This document shows positions 5,600 to 57,415 of a stretch of 64,000 nt of DNA, in pieces; position 1 is the first letter of the stretch; each line of letters begins with the position of its first letter. Source of the stretch: a virus. The notes beneath the pieces were generated by a model. It worked only from the letters and a program-made list of their open reading frames with translations. It did no database searches and was not told where the DNA came from. Both the position numbers and the translations under genes were made by a program. The DNA lies in the IMG/VR virus record IMGVR_UViG_3300044712_000810, positions 248,001-312,000 of that record; one strand, given 5' to 3'.

Positions 5600-7561
5600 A
5601 TGATCTCCTCAGTTAACCTTAGCGCAATACCATTTCAATCAAACACTGACAGTACCCGACTTCAAATGGCAGCCAAGCAATTGGCACAGAGTTTATCACA
5701 TAGGAATTGTGAAGTTCCTTATGTAATTGGTAAAGATTATAATTGTCTTTCTGATAACAGTCCAATCGGTTTATTATTTGCCGAAGATTCGGGCACTGTT
5801 TATTATAATAGAGATGATGTACTCATTTATCATTATGAAACTTTAAATAAATTGGAAGTAAAGTCGATTCCACCAATTAAAAAGACTCATGGAATTTATG
5901 CTAGTAGCTTAAGATCTTCACTTCCAGTAAATATGAAGTTTAATAAAGGTGATATTCTTTATGAATATGACTGTTTTAAAAATGGTATTCCAAGTATTGG
6001 CTATAATGCATTCTCTGCAATGATGCCTTGTTTTGGATTTAACCATGAAGATAGTATTTTAATTTCTGAAAGTTTTGCAGAAAAAACTAGAGCAAATTTT
6101 GTTGATAAAGTTTATGTTCCGATTTATGAATATACTTTATTGCAACAACTATATGATCCTTCAACAAACCATTTTGGATTCTTTCCAAACATTGGTGAAG
6201 AAATCAAAAATAGTTTAATTTGTTGCACACTAACACCTAAAATTACTGATAACATGAAATATGGCGCACATGCCAATATGAAAAACAAAATGATGCTATT
6301 ACTTAAATCTATGAACTTATCTGATTTACTTAGTATTCAAAACTCTTTACCAAACATGAACGTTGAAAAGATCAAAAGTAAACTTGAACATGGTAAAGTA
6401 TCTGGTATTAAAATTCATAAACTTATGGATAACGTAAAGTTATTGGATAAGCGTTTACAAACTGTTCTTGATGGTTTATATAAACTATACACAAACGTTT
6501 TTATTGATGCATATCATGAACTTGAAACAAAGTTCATGCAAGATGTAGCAAAAGATGTATTACGTCGTCACTATGTTTACAAAGATAAAGATAGTGTTCG
6601 AGGTAAATTAGATCTAAAAAACGTTGCATATGTATTGGAAATTGAAGTTACCGATGAGTGTCAATCACATGTTGGTGATAAATTTGCAAATCGTTATGCA
6701 AACAAAGGTGTAGTATCATTGGTATTTCCAGATGATATTGCACCAATTGCAGTACAATCAAATAAACCGGTTGATATTATATTTAACCCCTTTGGTGTAT
6801 TCTCACGTATGAACCTTGGACAATTAGTTGAAGGTATCGTATCTAAAAACGTAATGCATTGTGATAGTTATATCAAAGAAGGAAATAAAAAAGATCTTAA
6901 AGCTTCTATCTGGTGGTTAAATGAATATATCATTAAAAACCTTAATGATATGGAATATTACAATCGTGTAAATTCAGAAGTGATTGCCAGATTGGATGAA
7001 CCAAAGTTTAAAGAACAATTCATTGAAGACGTTAAACAACATAACCTTTTCATTGAAGCGCCAACATTTGGTGAAATTAATGTTCGTAATATTCTTAAAA
7101 ATGGTGTAAATCCAAACGAACAAGTATATATTAAGAAAGAATTTCTTCAATATATGAAAGACAAACTGAAATGTAATATTAATATGCCAATTCAGGATGT
7201 CGTATTGCCAAATATTTATTGTGCGCCGATGTATATTGAAAAATTATATAAATTGGCTAACAAACTTATTACGGCCCGAGATCTTGGTCCAATTAAAAGT
7301 ATTACTGGACAACCAAAACGTGGACGCGCAAATGAAGGTGGATCACGTCTTGGACAGATGGAACTTGAAGGTATTCTTGCACATGGATGTGAAAGAACAC
7401 TTAAAGAGTTCTTGACAGTTAAATCAGATCAACTTGATGCAAAACGTGACTTGATTATGCAGTTAATGAAAACTGGTAATTATCGTATGCGCGATGAATA
7501 TGGTGCATCTGGTAGAACAAAGAAAGTTGTTGACACACTTTTACACTTCCTGCGAGAATAA
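5600..7561 (+). CDS. RNA polymerase beta subunit, C-terminal half
   Basis: 653 aa. Matches the C-terminal half of bacterial RpoB in order: SAIPFQ near the start (cf. the PF..H..ANRAL region), AMMPCFGFNHEDSILISE, GDKFANRYANKGVVS, VDIIFNPFGVFSRMNLGQ, and the end block GQPKRGRANEGGSRLGQME. These build much of the catalytic cleft, including Lys residues that contact the nucleotide. The N-terminal half is encoded separately and downstream at 8017-9225, so beta is split and the pieces are in reversed order. AAGGAG precedes the ATG. Phage multisubunit polymerases of this sort (phiKZ-related) transcribe phage promoters independently of the host enzyme. Confidence 0.92.
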   Translation: MISSVNLSAIPFQSNTDSTRLQMAAKQLAQSLSHRNCEVPYVIGKDYNCLSDNSPIGLLFAEDSGTVYYNRDDVLIYHYETLNKLEVKSIPPIKKTHGIYASSLRSSLPVNMKFNKGDILYEYDCFKNGIPSIGYNAFSAMMPCFGFNHEDSILISESFAEKTRANFVDKVYVPIYEYTLLQQLYDPSTNHFGFFPNIGEEIKNSLICCTLTPKITDNMKYGAHANMKNKMMLLLKSMNLSDLLSIQNSLPNMNVEKIKSKLEHGKVSGIKIHKLMDNVKLLDKRLQTVLDGLYKLYTNVFIDAYHELETKFMQDVAKDVLRRHYVYKDKDSVRGKLDLKNVAYVLEIEVTDECQSHVGDKFANRYANKGVVSLVFPDDIAPIAVQSNKPVDIIFNPFGVFSRMNLGQLVEGIVSKNVMHCDSYIKEGNKKDLKASIWWLNEYIIKNLNDMEYYNRVNSEVIARLDEPKFKEQFIEDVKQHNLFIEAPTFGEINVRNILKNGVNPNEQVYIKKEFLQYMKDKLKCNINMPIQDVVLPNIYCAPMYIEKLYKLANKLITARDLGPIKSITGQPKRGRANEGGSRLGQMELEGILAHGCERTLKEFLTVKSDQLDAKRDLIMQLMKTGNYRMRDEYGASGRTKKVVDTLLHFLRE

Positions 7562-35575: not shown

Positions 35576-35847
35576 TAGATCTACCATTTGAACCAACATG
35601 GGTTTTATATGAATGTCCTCATTGGTTAAGTTACGCAGTATATAAATTAAATCGTAATTGTGAATTTTATGAAGAAGGTAAAGTATATGAATCAGATTTA
35701 ATGACACGTCGATGTAAATTCTCAAAAGAAATAAACCATCGTGATTGTCGGTGTACTGAAAGACAAAAACGATTAATTATTAACGAGTATTTACGTTTAT
35801 TTGAAACTCCTGAGGAGTTTCAAAAGTTGTTGTTGGAGAAAATATGA
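35572..35847 (+). CDS. Cys-rich tandem family, member 3
   Basis: 91 aa. YECPHWL, NCEFYE, RRCKFS and RDCRC carry the family cysteines; tail PEEFQKLLLEKI. ATGA overlaps at both ends. Confidence 0.68.
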   Translation: MIDLPFEPTWVLYECPHWLSYAVYKLNRNCEFYEEGKVYESDLMTRRCKFSKEINHRDCRCTERQKRLIINEYLRLFETPEEFQKLLLEKI

Positions 35848-36155
35848 GTGCACATCAAGACTTTATGACAGCATTGGATACATATTTAGATTTACTTAAA
35901 ACCACACGTATTCGAACTATTTATTTAAATGGATACATATATGAATTAGTATTAGTAGAAGGCGAGTTATTAGTATATGAATTTTATAATCATGATAAAA
36001 GTGATCATATTGTGTATGAAACAAGATCTCATGATTATCCTGGTGATTGTACAATGTTACAGACTCTTATGATGGGTGCACATATGCACTCATCAGATCA
36101 AAAAATGAAAGAATTAGAAATTGATATACAGAAACGTATAATGGAATTAATATGA
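35844..36155 (+). CDS. Unknown protein inside the Cys-rich run
   Basis: 103 aa. Lacks the cysteine pattern but ends IDIQKRIMELI and is coupled by ATGA overlaps to both neighbours. Unknown. Confidence 0.62.
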   Translation: MSAHQDFMTALDTYLDLLKTTRIRTIYLNGYIYELVLVEGELLVYEFYNHDKSDHIVYETRSHDYPGDCTMLQTLMMGAHMHSSDQKMKELEIDIQKRIMELI

Positions 36156-36439
36156 CAGATTATGATATTGATAATATTGCAGATGCATTATTAAACAATA
36201 CTCCAATAATGGCATTTAGAGTAGAATATCACTGTGACTATCAATTTTCAACAGATCGTACAGCGTGTCCATATTTTTCAAAGAGTAATTGGTCATCTAA
36301 ACGGTGTAGTCACTCGCAACATGATGATCATAAATTATGCGATAATAAAGAAAAAATTAAGAAAACAGTTGTTAAAGAATTCATTAAACATTTTGATAAT
36401 ATAACAGATTTTCAAAAACTTTTACTCGAGGAAGTATGA
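36152..36439 (+). CDS. Cys-rich tandem family, member 4
   Basis: 95 aa. YHCDYQF, TACPYFS, KRCSHS and LCDN repeat the cysteine pattern; tail TDFQKLLLEEV. ATGA overlap with the next member. Confidence 0.68.
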   Translation: MTDYDIDNIADALLNNTPIMAFRVEYHCDYQFSTDRTACPYFSKSNWSSKRCSHSQHDDHKLCDNKEKIKKTVVKEFIKHFDNITDFQKLLLEEV

Positions 36440-42746: not shown

Positions 42747-42821
42747 CTCTGTATAGCTCAGTGGCAGAGCTGGGAACTCTAAATTCCCCGGTCGCGAGTT
42801 CGAGTCTCGCTACAGAGGCCA
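42747..42821 (+). tRNA. tRNA-Arg (TCT), copy 1
   Basis: Acceptor CTCTGTA/TACAGAG with G discriminator, loop CTCTAAA, CCA. Begins directly after the Pth2-like stop. Confidence 0.93.
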
Positions 42822-53334: not shown

Positions 53335-53351
53335 TATTTAATATTCATAAG

Positions 53352-53370
53352 TTTGATATAGAAATATTAA
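53352..53370 (+). promoter_or_regulatory. Phage promoter motif for ncRNA 1
   Basis: TTTGATATAGAAATATTAA, first of three consecutive promoter motifs each followed by a noncoding transcript. Confidence 0.72.
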
Positions 53371-53565
53371 TGAAAGCTCCGGAGAGGCATCGCCCCACCC
53401 CACGCTGGCCCGGACATGATCTGACGCCATAGCGTAGCTTCGCCACAGCGTAACCCGATAGGCAGATTTGCACACGGGCATCGGCCATCGACGCTAACTG
53501 GCGATCTGGCACATCGCCTCTCCACTCGCTTGAGGGGACCTTCGGGTCCCCTTTCTACTTTTTTT
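53371..53565 (+). ncRNA. Noncoding RNA 1 (GC-rich)
   Basis: About 190 nt with no credible ORF, much more GC-rich than its surroundings. GGAGAGGC (53381-53388) closes with GCCTCTCC (53516-53523). Contains direct repeats CGCCATAGCGTA and CGCCACAGCGTA (53425 and 53441). Ends in the terminator AGGGGACC-TTCG-GGTCCCCT followed by a T-rich stretch (53533-53566). Confidence 0.68.
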
Positions 53566-53576
53566 GTTTTCTGTAT

Positions 53577-53594
53577 TTTGATATAGAAATAGTA
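53577..53594 (+). promoter_or_regulatory. Phage promoter motif for ncRNA 2
   Basis: TTTGATATAGAAATAGTA immediately after the ncRNA 1 terminator. Confidence 0.74.
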
Positions 53595-53738
53595 AAGTAC
53601 GCATAATGGAAACGCCGGGATGCCTCCTTGGCTCTTGTGGGATTGGCTCACAAGGGTAATAAGGTCCGGTTGATCCATGCGTGGTTGGCGGGGTAGAGTC
53701 TGTATAGATTCCCCCGCTAACCGATATTTATTTTTTTA
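53595..53738 (+). ncRNA. Noncoding RNA 2
   Basis: About 140 nt without an ORF. Internal hairpin CTCTTGTG/CACAAG around 53632-53657; GCATAATGG...CCATGC outer pairing possible; terminal hairpin GTTGGCGGGG / CCCCGCTAAC then ATTTATTTTTTT as terminator. Confidence 0.66.
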
Positions 53739-53749
53739 ATATTTACTTG

Positions 53750-53767
53750 TTTCATATAGAAATAGTT
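53750..53767 (+). promoter_or_regulatory. Phage promoter motif for ncRNA 3
   Basis: TTTCATATAGAAATAGTT, directly after the ncRNA 2 terminator. Confidence 0.74.
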
Positions 53768-53970
53768 AATTAAAGAGTTCTGTTCAAAAAAAACAAAACT
53801 CATCTAAGTAGCACCACCCGAAGAAATTCGGTACTTAGATGAAACCACCACCTAAGCAGAACTCAGAGAGGCCTCCCTTCAACCTACAGCACCACCCTAC
53901 TGCTAAAGAGGGAGCCTCAAGACAACAACCAGGACAGTTTCACGACTGCCCTGTTTTCATTTCTTTTTTT
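53768..53970 (+). ncRNA. Noncoding RNA 3 with repeated CACCACC segments
   Basis: About 200 nt, no ORF. GAGTTCTG/CAGAACTC (53775-53782, 53857-53864) encloses CATCTAAGT/ACTTAGATG (53801-53809, 53833-53841); a second hairpin is GAGGCCTCCCTT / AAGAGGGAGCCTC (53868-53918). GCACCACCC lies in both hairpin loops (53811, 53889) and ACCACCACC between stems (53844). Terminator CAGGACAG/CTGCCCTG plus T run. Confidence 0.68.
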
Positions 53971-53981
53971 GGAGGATTTTT

Positions 53982-54170
53982 ATGGGATGGATTAGAGATA
54001 TAGATTGTCCATTTTGTGAACATGAGTTCGAATGGGAAGTCTGGGAAAATGGTAAATGTCCAAAATGTGGTGAAGAATTTTATTGGTCAGAAGATTGCAC
54101 TGAAGATTATTCAGATTGTTGGGATAGTTTATGGTGGAATAAATGGGATGAAGAAAGGAGAAATAAATGA
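53982..54170 (+). CDS. Zinc-ribbon protein
   Basis: 62 aa. CPFCEHEF and CPKCGEEF form a two-CxxC zinc ribbon, followed by an acidic, Trp-rich tail (CTEDYSDCWDSLWWNKWDEE). TGGAGG precedes the ATG. ATGA overlap with the beta-prime gene suggests that it acts with the polymerase. Confidence 0.7.
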   Translation: MGWIRDIDCPFCEHEFEWEVWENGKCPKCGEEFYWSEDCTEDYSDCWDSLWWNKWDEERRNK

Positions 54171-55468
54171 AACTTAATTTATTAGATATAAATGAGTTTG
54201 TGACTAAAAACAATGTTAGACAAGTAAGTACAGTTCGTGTATATGAACGTCCAAATAAACTTGATGAAACCGGTCTATTTAGTGAAGTAATCTTTGGTCG
54301 TATTGGTTCAAATGACCGTCGTAAACGCTTTGGTTATATTAATTTAAAATGTCGAGTATTACATCCAGAAACTTATAGTTTACTAGTTCGTTTAGATCCT
54401 TCAATCAGTAAGTTTATAATGCAAAAAGCAACTTATGAACTTAGTGAAAATGGTGAACTCATAGAATCTGAAAATGGTGTTAATGGTGTATATAATCTTG
54501 TTGAATTCTTACCAAAAATGAAATTTGATAAGTTCAAGAATCAAGAAATTGCAAAATTTGTAAAAAAGAATCTTGATAAAATTATCATTGATAAAATTCT
54601 AGTTTTACCTGCAGGTATTCGTGACTTAAAATTATCAAAGATATCTGGTAAATCTCAAGTACAATTTGCTGAAATTAATAAATTATATGAAGCTATTATT
54701 AAACAATCAAACTCAATTCCTGATGATTTGTCTAGTTTACCACAAGAATTCTCATCAAGTTTTGTTCAAACAATTCAAAGAAAAGTACTTGAAATAAATG
54801 AATGGATCAAATCAAAAATGAAAGGTAAGTCTGGTCTTATTCGTGGTGGACTACTTAAGAAAGTAATCGACTACTCCGCCCGTCTTATCATTGTTTCTGA
54901 TCCGACTCTTAAATTAGGTCAACTTGGTTTACCTTGGCAAGTAGTACTTAAACTTTATGAACCATTTACTTTAAATTACTTTTTACATAAAGATCAAACT
55001 TCATTAGCGCTTATTCAAGATAATCTTGGCGCAAACATGACACCAGATATTAATGATCTTAAAAGATTTATTCAAAAAATAAATGAAGATCCAACAAGCA
55101 TTAGTGAACTATTAAAAGACCATCTTATTGCTGCTGCACATGACATTAGTAAAGGTAAAACCATTTTATATAAACGTGACCCGGTTGAAGCTCGTGACAA
55201 CTATATGGGCGCTGATGTTCGTGTTGATCGTGAATCTAGTGTTGCACGTATGAATCCACTTGATCTTCCAAGATGCGGTGGTGACTTTGACGGTGACCAG
55301 ATTGCTATATTCCCACTATTTACAAAAGAAGCAAATGCAGAAGCAAGTGCGAAGTTACATCCATCAAATTCAAAAGCAATGTGGACAAGTTCTGTAAGTT
55401 TAAGCAGACAACCATATTTCTTACAACTTGATGCAGCAACAACTCTTTATGCAATTACTAAGGAGTAA
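54167..55468 (+). CDS. RNA polymerase beta-prime subunit, N-terminal part
   Basis: 433 aa. RpoC blocks in order: SEVIFGRIG near the start, LIRGGLLKKVIDYSARLIIV (cf. R..LLGKRVDYSGRSVI), LGQLGLPWQVVLKLYEPF, and the catalytic loop GGDFDGDQIAIF with the Mg-binding Asp373, Asp375 and Asp377. Diverges from the universal NADFDGD only in the first two residues. It ends soon after the active site; the C-terminal part is not in this window. Together with the two beta genes it shows a phage-encoded multisubunit polymerase. Confidence 0.93.
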   Translation: MKLNLLDINEFVTKNNVRQVSTVRVYERPNKLDETGLFSEVIFGRIGSNDRRKRFGYINLKCRVLHPETYSLLVRLDPSISKFIMQKATYELSENGELIESENGVNGVYNLVEFLPKMKFDKFKNQEIAKFVKKNLDKIIIDKILVLPAGIRDLKLSKISGKSQVQFAEINKLYEAIIKQSNSIPDDLSSLPQEFSSSFVQTIQRKVLEINEWIKSKMKGKSGLIRGGLLKKVIDYSARLIIVSDPTLKLGQLGLPWQVVLKLYEPFTLNYFLHKDQTSLALIQDNLGANMTPDINDLKRFIQKINEDPTSISELLKDHLIAAAHDISKGKTILYKRDPVEARDNYMGADVRVDRESSVARMNPLDLPRCGGDFDGDQIAIFPLFTKEANAEASAKLHPSNSKAMWTSSVSLSRQPYFLQLDAATTLYAITKE

Positions 55469-55471
55469 AAC

Positions 55472-57415
55472 ATGTCAGAAGATCTATTTAATGAAATAAT
55501 GGGATTCACAGTTGATCCACATCGTATTCAACAAACATCAATGAATCAACCACAACAAGGATATATTGCACCAACAACAATGCAACAACATGATAGACAA
55601 GACTTTGGTATTGAATTTTCACATTGCGCAACAATGGAACCATGGCAACGTAGAATTTCTGACGTTTTAAAACATGGTAAAGATGTATATGTTGTTGCTG
55701 CACCAGGAGGTGGTAAAACACTTCCAGTATTTTGTCACTGGACAAATAATATTCTTAATTTAAATACAATGATGACTGGCCCAGCAAACGATAAAGCATA
55801 TACAGAATGTGTAAAAAATATATTTTTGGAACCTAATAAAATACCAAAAATCCTATTCTTAGTTCCAACAAGATCACTCGCAATGCAAACAGAACAAGAA
55901 GTTCGTGCTGTATTTGGTGATATTATATCACAAACAATGAATCGATTTTTAAAAGTAACACAATTTGAAGAATCGATTGATAGTGAAACTTTTGGACCAT
56001 CCGCACCGGGACATTATACTCCTCATGATGCAGCACAAAGAGCTTATAATAACAATTTACAAAGACAAATATTTGAAAAACTTGGCAATAGCAATTTAAT
56101 AATGATGATGACTGAAATTGCCAGACTTGCGGAAGAACGTCGAAGTGCAACAAACGATTATGAAAAATCAAGAATTCGAAATATAATCGATTCATATAAA
56201 CGTCAATTTAAACAAGAATTAATTGAATCTTTAAGAAATTATATGAATGGAAATCTGTTACGAGTAAAAACTGGCGACTATAATATTGATGGAAATAATG
56301 CATTAGTTCATATTTCTATTTATGAATCCGCAGTAAATATAGTTAATAATATGTCTAACCTAGGATTAATTATTATTGACGAAGCGCACTTAATTCAAAA
56401 GTCAGGTGAAATTGGCGACGAATCACGTAATAGACAAATAGCAGAAGCATTATATACAGTTCTACATAAATTAAAAGGTAGTAAAACAAATATAGTTTTA
56501 CTATCTGGAACTGAACATCCAGAAAGTGCACAAGAAATCATTAAATATTTAAATCATTGTTTTGGAAGAAACTTTGAAAAATCTGATGCACTTATTCAAA
56601 GTTCCAGTGGAAACAGATCACAATTAAGTATTGTTCCAGATGATAGTTTGATGAATGATTCAAAACTTGTCGATATCGTCGTCAACGCTGTAAGGAAAAA
56701 AGATTGGGGTGAATTAATTGTATTATTTTCTGCAAGAAAAATTGTAAAAATTGCAGAAGAAGCAATTAAAAAATTAGGAACAAGAGATTTAAAAACTGTA
56801 AATACTAATGTTCAGTATGGTCATCAATTTACTAGTATTTATGGTAATATAGAAAAACAAGCTCCATCAATGTCAATATCAAGAAATGATGCACATGCTA
56901 TTTCACAACCAAAACCAGAATTATCTGATGCCTCAAATATTAAAGATCCACTATTACGCGCATGTGTATCCGCTGGTTTTGGTTTTTATTTCCGTAATAT
57001 GCCAGATGGTGGTGGCGAAGTAAGTGACAACGATAAGTTTATTGTAAGTAAATTATTTAAAGATAAAAAAATACACGCAATGCTCGCAACAGACGGTGTT
57101 GGTATTGGAGTTAATATTGACGTTAAACGTATTTATATTCCAAGAATTGAAAAATTCGAAGCTATAATTGGTGATAATAAAGAAATTCCATTACGTGACT
57201 TAGCACAAATACTTAACAGAGCTGGTCGTGGTAAAATTCCATTCGCATCAATATTTACACCATCAGGAAATGTTGAAATGGTAAGATCTGCATTATCAGC
57301 TACTGCAGAACAATTCAATGTTGTCCCCGCATATAGTAAAATTGGTTTTGGAATGATATGTCATAAGTTCGAAGCCTTCTATAGTATGTGGAAAGAAATG
57401 TCTGTCAAATTTTAA
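55472..57415 (+). CDS. SF2 DEAH-box helicase
   Basis: 647 aa. Motif I APGGGKT with Lys82, motif Ia LVPTRSLAMQTEQE, motif II DEAH at 303-306, motif III LLSGTEHPES, motif V TDGVGIGVNIDVKRI and motif VI QILNRAGRGK. An insertion of about 120 residues lies between motifs Ia and II. Nucleic-acid unwinding or translocation is expected. Three bases after the beta-prime gene, so a transcription-linked helicase is plausible. Confidence 0.9.
   Translation: MSEDLFNEIMGFTVDPHRIQQTSMNQPQQGYIAPTTMQQHDRQDFGIEFSHCATMEPWQRRISDVLKHGKDVYVVAAPGGGKTLPVFCHWTNNILNLNTMMTGPANDKAYTECVKNIFLEPNKIPKILFLVPTRSLAMQTEQEVRAVFGDIISQTMNRFLKVTQFEESIDSETFGPSAPGHYTPHDAAQRAYNNNLQRQIFEKLGNSNLIMMMTEIARLAEERRSATNDYEKSRIRNIIDSYKRQFKQELIESLRNYMNGNLLRVKTGDYNIDGNNALVHISIYESAVNIVNNMSNLGLIIIDEAHLIQKSGEIGDESRNRQIAEALYTVLHKLKGSKTNIVLLSGTEHPESAQEIIKYLNHCFGRNFEKSDALIQSSSGNRSQLSIVPDDSLMNDSKLVDIVVNAVRKKDWGELIVLFSARKIVKIAEEAIKKLGTRDLKTVNTNVQYGHQFTSIYGNIEKQAPSMSISRNDAHAISQPKPELSDASNIKDPLLRACVSAGFGFYFRNMPDGGGEVSDNDKFIVSKLFKDKKIHAMLATDGVGIGVNIDVKRIYIPRIEKFEAIIGDNKEIPLRDLAQILNRAGRGKIPFASIFTPSGNVEMVRSALSATAEQFNVVPAYSKIGFGMICHKFEAFYSMWKEMSVKF

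Follow-up and report, generated by a model that had tools for sequence, protein, structure and literature searches.

The analysed stretch of viral DNA (the window, 64,000 nt) corresponds to positions 248001-312000 of a phage record of 314,837 bp (G000). Between 53352 and 53981 of the window lie three units, each consisting of a promoter, a putative RNA and a terminator and containing no credible open reading frame (ORF), upstream of a run of genes for a Zn-ribbon-like protein, an RNA polymerase (RNAP) β′ part and a helicase. The features are as follows.

53337-53366, plus strand: promoter 1, with upstream element TTTAATATT and core TTTGATATAGAAATA at 53352; matrix score 34.1
53375-53565, plus strand: RNA1, ~185 nt, GC-rich, predicted to be multibranched; start predicted from promoter geometry
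53532-53568, plus strand: RNA1 terminator, GAGGGGACC-TTCG-GGTCCCCTT followed by a T-tract
53562-53591, plus strand: promoter 2, core TTTGATATAGAAATA at 53577; matrix score 31.1
53599-53738, plus strand: RNA2, ~140 nt, predicted to form a long irregular rod and then the terminator hairpin
53619-53630, plus strand: GATGCCTCCTTG within RNA2; its complement, CAAGGAGGCATC, occurs at ribosome-binding sites of the phage
53683-53740, plus strand: RNA2 terminator, a long hairpin of the 20-bp class (53683-53722) and then the T-tract ATTTATTTTTTT
53735-53764, plus strand: promoter 3, core TTTCATATAGAAATA at 53750; matrix score 38.6, one of the top values genome-wide
53773-53970, plus strand: RNA3, ~197 nt, predicted to form two long hairpins
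53930-53971, plus strand: RNA3 terminator, CAGGACAGTTTCACGACTGCCCTG and then TTTTCATTTCTTTTTTT, with the T-tract adjoining the GGAGG of the next gene
53982-54170, plus strand: Zn-ribbon-like small protein (62 aa), the first gene 3′ of RNA3; weak match to Pfam Zn_ribbon_6, under the curated cut-off
54167-55468, plus strand: N-terminal part of RNAP β′; the closest solved relative is the β′ of the AR9 non-virion RNAP (nvRNAP)
55472-57415, plus strand: DEAD-box helicase

Neighbouring signals are fused: the T-tracts of the RNA1 and RNA2 terminators double as the T-rich upstream element of the promoter that follows, and that of RNA3 runs directly into the ribosome-binding site (GGAGG) of the next gene. 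The initial annotation had placed promoter motifs at 53352, 53577 and 53750, which is exactly where the cores TTTGATATAGAAATA, TTTGATATAGAAATA and TTTCATATAGAAATA begin. Its ORF-free transcripts of 140-200 nt agree with the lengths of ~185, ~140 and ~197 nt read from the sequence, each unit being a GC-rich stretch closed by a hairpin and a T-tract, and it had correctly set the array ahead of the β′/helicase operon, where the Zn-ribbon-like gene, β′ and helicase come next.

No ribosome-binding site with an accompanying ORF was found inside the three units, in which the longest ORF is antisense (103 aa). Short frames of 20 codons in RNA1 and ~17 codons in RNA2 begin with an ATG close to the 5′ end, and a sense frame in RNA3 extends for 54 codons from the ATG at 53839 through the terminator, by eye without a ribosome-binding site. 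These frames would be the starting point for regarding the units as small protein genes, which we consider extremely unlikely: no frame has a ribosome-binding site, though GGAG lies upstream of 275 of the 485 called genes of this phage, and frames of this kind are ordinary in GC-rich sequence.

The promoter motif is a genuine genome-wide signal, far above chance. With at most one mismatch, the core ATATAGAAATA occurs 27 times in the window against a chance mean of 4.9 (largest shuffle, 12) and 56 times in the 314,837-bp record against five for the reversed pattern. Alignment of the sites reveals a longer bipartite motif, TTTAATATTy-N5-wTTyATATAGAAATA, and the extended matrix finds 90 sites in the genome, nearly all intergenic, of which 86 score ≥20; the reversed-matrix control gave at most two matches genome-wide, none scoring ≥16. 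A purine occupies the expected start position, six bases after ATATAGAAATAWT, in 76 of the 90 sites, and across 23 noncoding units from two phages base pairing begins at a median of 21 nt. The predicted promoter also stands before mRNA genes and tRNA genes.

Jumbo phages with their own RNAPs each have an AT-rich motif of ~10 nt that is detectable by its overrepresentation and that, where transcripts have been profiled, marked the early promoters of the virion RNAP, centred near −10 (PMC7598289, PMC5312081); in AR9 the geometry is AAATATATATTAT-(6N)-G (PMC5312081). The motif described here resembles the virion-RNAP early promoters of AR9, phiKZ and phiR1-37 in being an overrepresented AT-rich element of 10-13 nt placed ~6 nt before a purine start, and the phage, like those three, has two multisubunit RNAPs (PMC5312081, PMC7598289), with two loci carrying a β domain and two a β′ domain. 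It differs from them in its letters (ATATAGAAATA), in its extra T-rich upstream element and in that its early timing is putative here; its 90 copies are sequence matches, compared with 41 transcription start sites in AR9. Because the promoter form matches the AR9/phiKZ early class and two sets of RNAP genes are present, we infer that the promoters belong to the early, virion-RNAP class and that the three RNAs are early transcripts.

Structure prediction gave fold z-scores of −3.5 with and −2.4 without the terminator for RNA1 (−2.4 to −4.9 overall, according to ends and shuffles), −6.5 with the terminator and −4.2 for the rod alone for RNA2, and −5.9 with and −7.8 without the terminator for RNA3. 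Of 260 segments of 150 nt drawn at random from this genome, 3.8% had a z below −3.5 and none was below −6, the lowest being −5.4; the values in this background test were −2.5, −5.5 and −7.7 for RNA1, RNA2 and RNA3, respectively. RNA2 and RNA3 thus reach or exceed the extreme of the genome background, while the fold of RNA1, the least exceptional, is only moderately better than background. The predicted 5′ ends of RNA1 and RNA2 pair with the bases immediately ahead of their terminators and that of RNA3 is paired inside the first long hairpin; ACCACC-type segments are unpaired at three places in the RNA3 fold. Mutual pairing among the RNAs yielded only long duplexes that would demand melting of their own folds, which is uninformative.

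None of the three RNAs matches a family in Rfam 15 (including ROOL, GOLLD, 6S and RNase P) at the gathering threshold, and relaxing the search to E values of up to 10 gave chance-level matches only. As the initial annotation had noted, they are unrelated in sequence: RNA1, RNA2 and RNA3 do not match one another, and blastn among the noncoding regions of six records showed them to share only promoter and terminator similarity. Single-sequence covariance models of the three found nothing credible in ~981 kb of related phages and two core-sequence scans returned no homologues; there is therefore no covariation to assess.

A search of viral contigs for the tandem-promoter pattern returned 25 matches, none with the extended motif, and a helicase-based search gave no relatives. 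Scanning with the extended promoter identified a related phage, G001 (285,572 bp), and fragments; β′ identity to G000 is 51% in G001 and 42% in G008, and in two more relatives it is 50% (G012) and 49% (G011). The β′ of G000 is ~25-32% identical to genes of jumbo phages infecting Listeria, Staphylococcus, Bacillus, Yersinia and others. The contigs of G012 and G011 were taken from genome bins that carry the labels Neomarinimicrobiota and Bacteroidetes; they are probably phage contigs put in those bins, and the labels may reflect chance binning. Throughout these relatives the promoter precedes mRNA genes, and in some it precedes tRNA genes. Noncoding promoter-to-terminator units occur in four phages with this promoter (G000, G001, G011 and G012). 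In G001, two predicted noncoding RNA genes (~335 and ~205 nt) lie directly before genes for a small CxxC protein, a MazG-like protein and β′. Their promoter and the fusion of terminator with ribosome-binding site are as in G000, and they share no sequence with RNA1-3 by blastn. Position and layout are common to these two phages while the RNA sequences differ; in G008, G011 and G012, the sequence examined holds no such unit directly before β′.

These observations bear on a further suggestion of the initial annotation, that the RNAs are components of the phage particle or of a polymerase complex, which would make them pRNA-like or 6S-like. The array does adjoin an RNAP subunit gene in two phages, and RNA2 is predicted to be rod-shaped with internal loops. 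However, components of the particle would be expected late, and the early-type promoter therefore counts against such a role; nothing in the RNAs resembles pRNA, 6S RNA or a known family, even at the lenient Rfam threshold, and two relatives with the same polymerase lack a noncoding RNA gene at this place. We regard this reading as very improbable. Somewhat less remote, but still unlikely, is that the RNAs are decoys aimed at host defences or RNA-binding factors, abundant early structured molecules that would titrate a host nuclease or protein. The early promoter class, the lack of shared RNA sequence between relatives and the repeated single-stranded ACCACC segments predicted in RNA3 are in keeping with such a role, which would explain fast sequence turnover at a fixed position; against it, comparison of the RNAs with CRISPR repeats, tRNAs and other known targets showed no similarity.

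The reading of the units as noncoding RNA genes with dedicated promoters holds, by sequence, for RNA1 and RNA2, whereas RNA3 is ambiguous. It is terminated, yet no further promoter match lies between it and the Zn-ribbon/β′/helicase genes, which leaves RNA3 as their sole candidate for an early leader. An attenuator leader has a terminator placed between the genes and their only promoter, which is the layout seen here; partial termination would make RNA3 an attenuator, at present a lead. The whole array could also be chiefly a cis-acting block of leaders or attenuators, in which three stacked promoters provide graded read-through into the nvRNAP β′ operon and the short RNAs are by-products. G001 shows the same order, the T-tract of RNA3 enters a ribosome-binding site with no intervening promoter match, other structured units of G000 and G001 adjoin genes too, and 5′ leaders of up to 491 nt occur in AR9 (PMC5312081). 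Yet RNA1 and RNA2 are each closed by a strong terminator with another promoter immediately behind it, an arrangement that would be wasteful for a leader, and we consider this explanation possible but doubtful.

RNA2 offers a candidate mode of action. It contains GAUGCCUCCUUG, the complement of CAAGGAGGCAUC; CAAGGAGGCA, along with AACAAGGAGG, is the commonest GGAG-containing 10-mer around the start codons of the phage. The 10-mer match to RNA2 is found at seven genes, and 11 of the 16 genes with AGGAGGCA sit directly 3′ of an early promoter. The duplex computed for the RNA2 site with CAAGGAGGCATC yields about −24 kcal/mol, at an opening cost of 6.2 kcal/mol. Compared with shuffled sequences, the match has an uncorrected P of 0.005-0.01, which becomes ~0.1, and hence not significant, after correction for the 23 RNA units tested. 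A role for RNA2 as an antisense RNA acting on phage ribosome-binding sites is therefore no more than a lead.

The explanation that we favour, with a probability of roughly 0.6, is that RNA1-3 are early structured small RNAs of the phage and that RNA3 is in addition a terminated leader of the nvRNAP β′ operon; the promoters, terminators, predicted folds, lack of a credible ORF and shared position and layout in one relative are read from the sequence, and transcription, early timing, read-through, regulatory role and RNA2 targets are inferred. The phage itself would be a jumbo phage and a distant relative of AR9, PBS1 and phiR1-37. Each RNA gene would be started at its early promoter, most likely by the virion-packaged RNAP that enters with the DNA, and would stop at its own intrinsic terminator, the T-tract of which continues into the following promoter or ribosome-binding site. 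Of the three, RNA1 and RNA2 would be stand-alone early small RNAs. Most RNA3 transcripts would end at the terminator, with read-through giving rise to early mRNA for the β′ and helicase genes of the nvRNAP operon. That the RNAs are abundant regulators, as originally proposed, is plausible, and their likely task would be post-transcriptional control during takeover; RNA2, for example, might mask ribosome-binding sites of the CAAGGAGGCA type in a group of early phage mRNAs. A bolder version, decidedly doubtful as a whole, is that the lineage keeps a dedicated slot for fast-evolving early small RNAs before the nvRNAP gene, such that the injected polymerase makes regulatory RNAs first and the next polymerase only by read-through, with RNA2 as an anti-Shine-Dalgarno RNA repressing an early CAAGGAGGCA regulon. 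If RNA3 does gate nvRNAP synthesis, or RNA2 does pair with early ribosome-binding sites, this would amount to timing control at the level of RNA; the switch between two RNA polymerases for which this phage group has so far been known is protein-based.

ROOL and GOLLD are large ornate RNAs of more than 500 nt, and the stable RNAs C and D of phage T4 (100-150 nt), which lie in a tRNA cluster, were long without known function. RNA1-3 share the small size of the T4 RNAs but are separate promoter-terminator units rather than parts of a processed tRNA transcript; ROOL and GOLLD are likewise noncoding, structured and phage- or prophage-borne (PMC12286853), from which RNA1-3 differ in length (140-197 nt) and in matching no Rfam model. 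Noncoding RNAs of lytic phages have already been seen by RNA-seq for phiR1-37 (misc_4; PMC12197685), phage K (PMC9241854) and phiKZ (PMC13282480). One parallel is misc_4, a 296-nt noncoding RNA from a related RNAP-encoding jumbo phage; unlike here, most RNA species of phiR1-37 are antisense and no array of three is described (PMC4848604, as described in PMC12197685). In phage K, lnc001, lnc002 and the snc RNAs are also lytic-phage noncoding RNAs, and lnc001 has its own early promoter, but the promoters are of host type, the RNAs are longer or antisense and the phage is unrelated (PMC9241854). The locus probably holds three adjacent, well-delimited, early noncoding RNA genes, new as families and of a kind already seen in lytic phages. 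Few functions have been assigned to the noncoding RNAs of lytic giant phages, and the clear predicted boundaries, strong promoter matches and recurrence of the position in a relative make RNA1-3 clean targets for expression, deletion and pulldown studies.

Several other observations were made in the related phages. In G001, the nvRNAP β′ gene (L087 15211-16640) is interrupted by an intron-like insert, whose HNH-type ORF is preceded by an early promoter of its own; Rfam did not recognise an intron there, and AR9 g270 has a similarly placed HNH gene. A conserved noncoding element is found in G000 (243265-243437; L024 3265-3437), G001 (196379-196620 and 89082-89348), G005 and G009, as well as inside the intron-like insert; it is identical over 34 of 34 bases in part, has no Rfam match and is possibly a group I intron core. 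Two neighbouring noncoding units on the minus strand of G001 (250103 and 249915) share a fold and the motif GGACGC-hairpin-GAUGyUCC, and likely represent an RNA family duplicated within one phage. An intergenic palindrome around ATCTTGCCG / CGGCAAGAT recurs in two relatives (intergenic regions of G001; L184 of G011).

Within the window, three or four tRNA-like elements in tandem occupy 28225-28560 before the tRNA cluster, with their own early promoter at 28209. Most of them end in CCA; they were not called by ARAGORN and score 18-27 bits with the Rfam tRNA model (cut-off 29); they may be degenerate tRNAs or decoys. A tRNA at 42747-42821 has the anticodon CTA, typical of an amber suppressor, even though ~79 of 495 called genes terminate at TAG. 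Large GC-rich regions that initially appeared noncoding and carry the same promoter proved to be mostly protein genes missed by the gene caller, or tRNA genes, and were left out of the noncoding RNA count for that reason. Protein genes of ~50% GC follow early promoters at 5924-6553, 35829-36361, 83404-84047, 160137-161025 and 240026-240800 of G000, in a genome of 33% GC, and are possibly recent acquisitions from the host.
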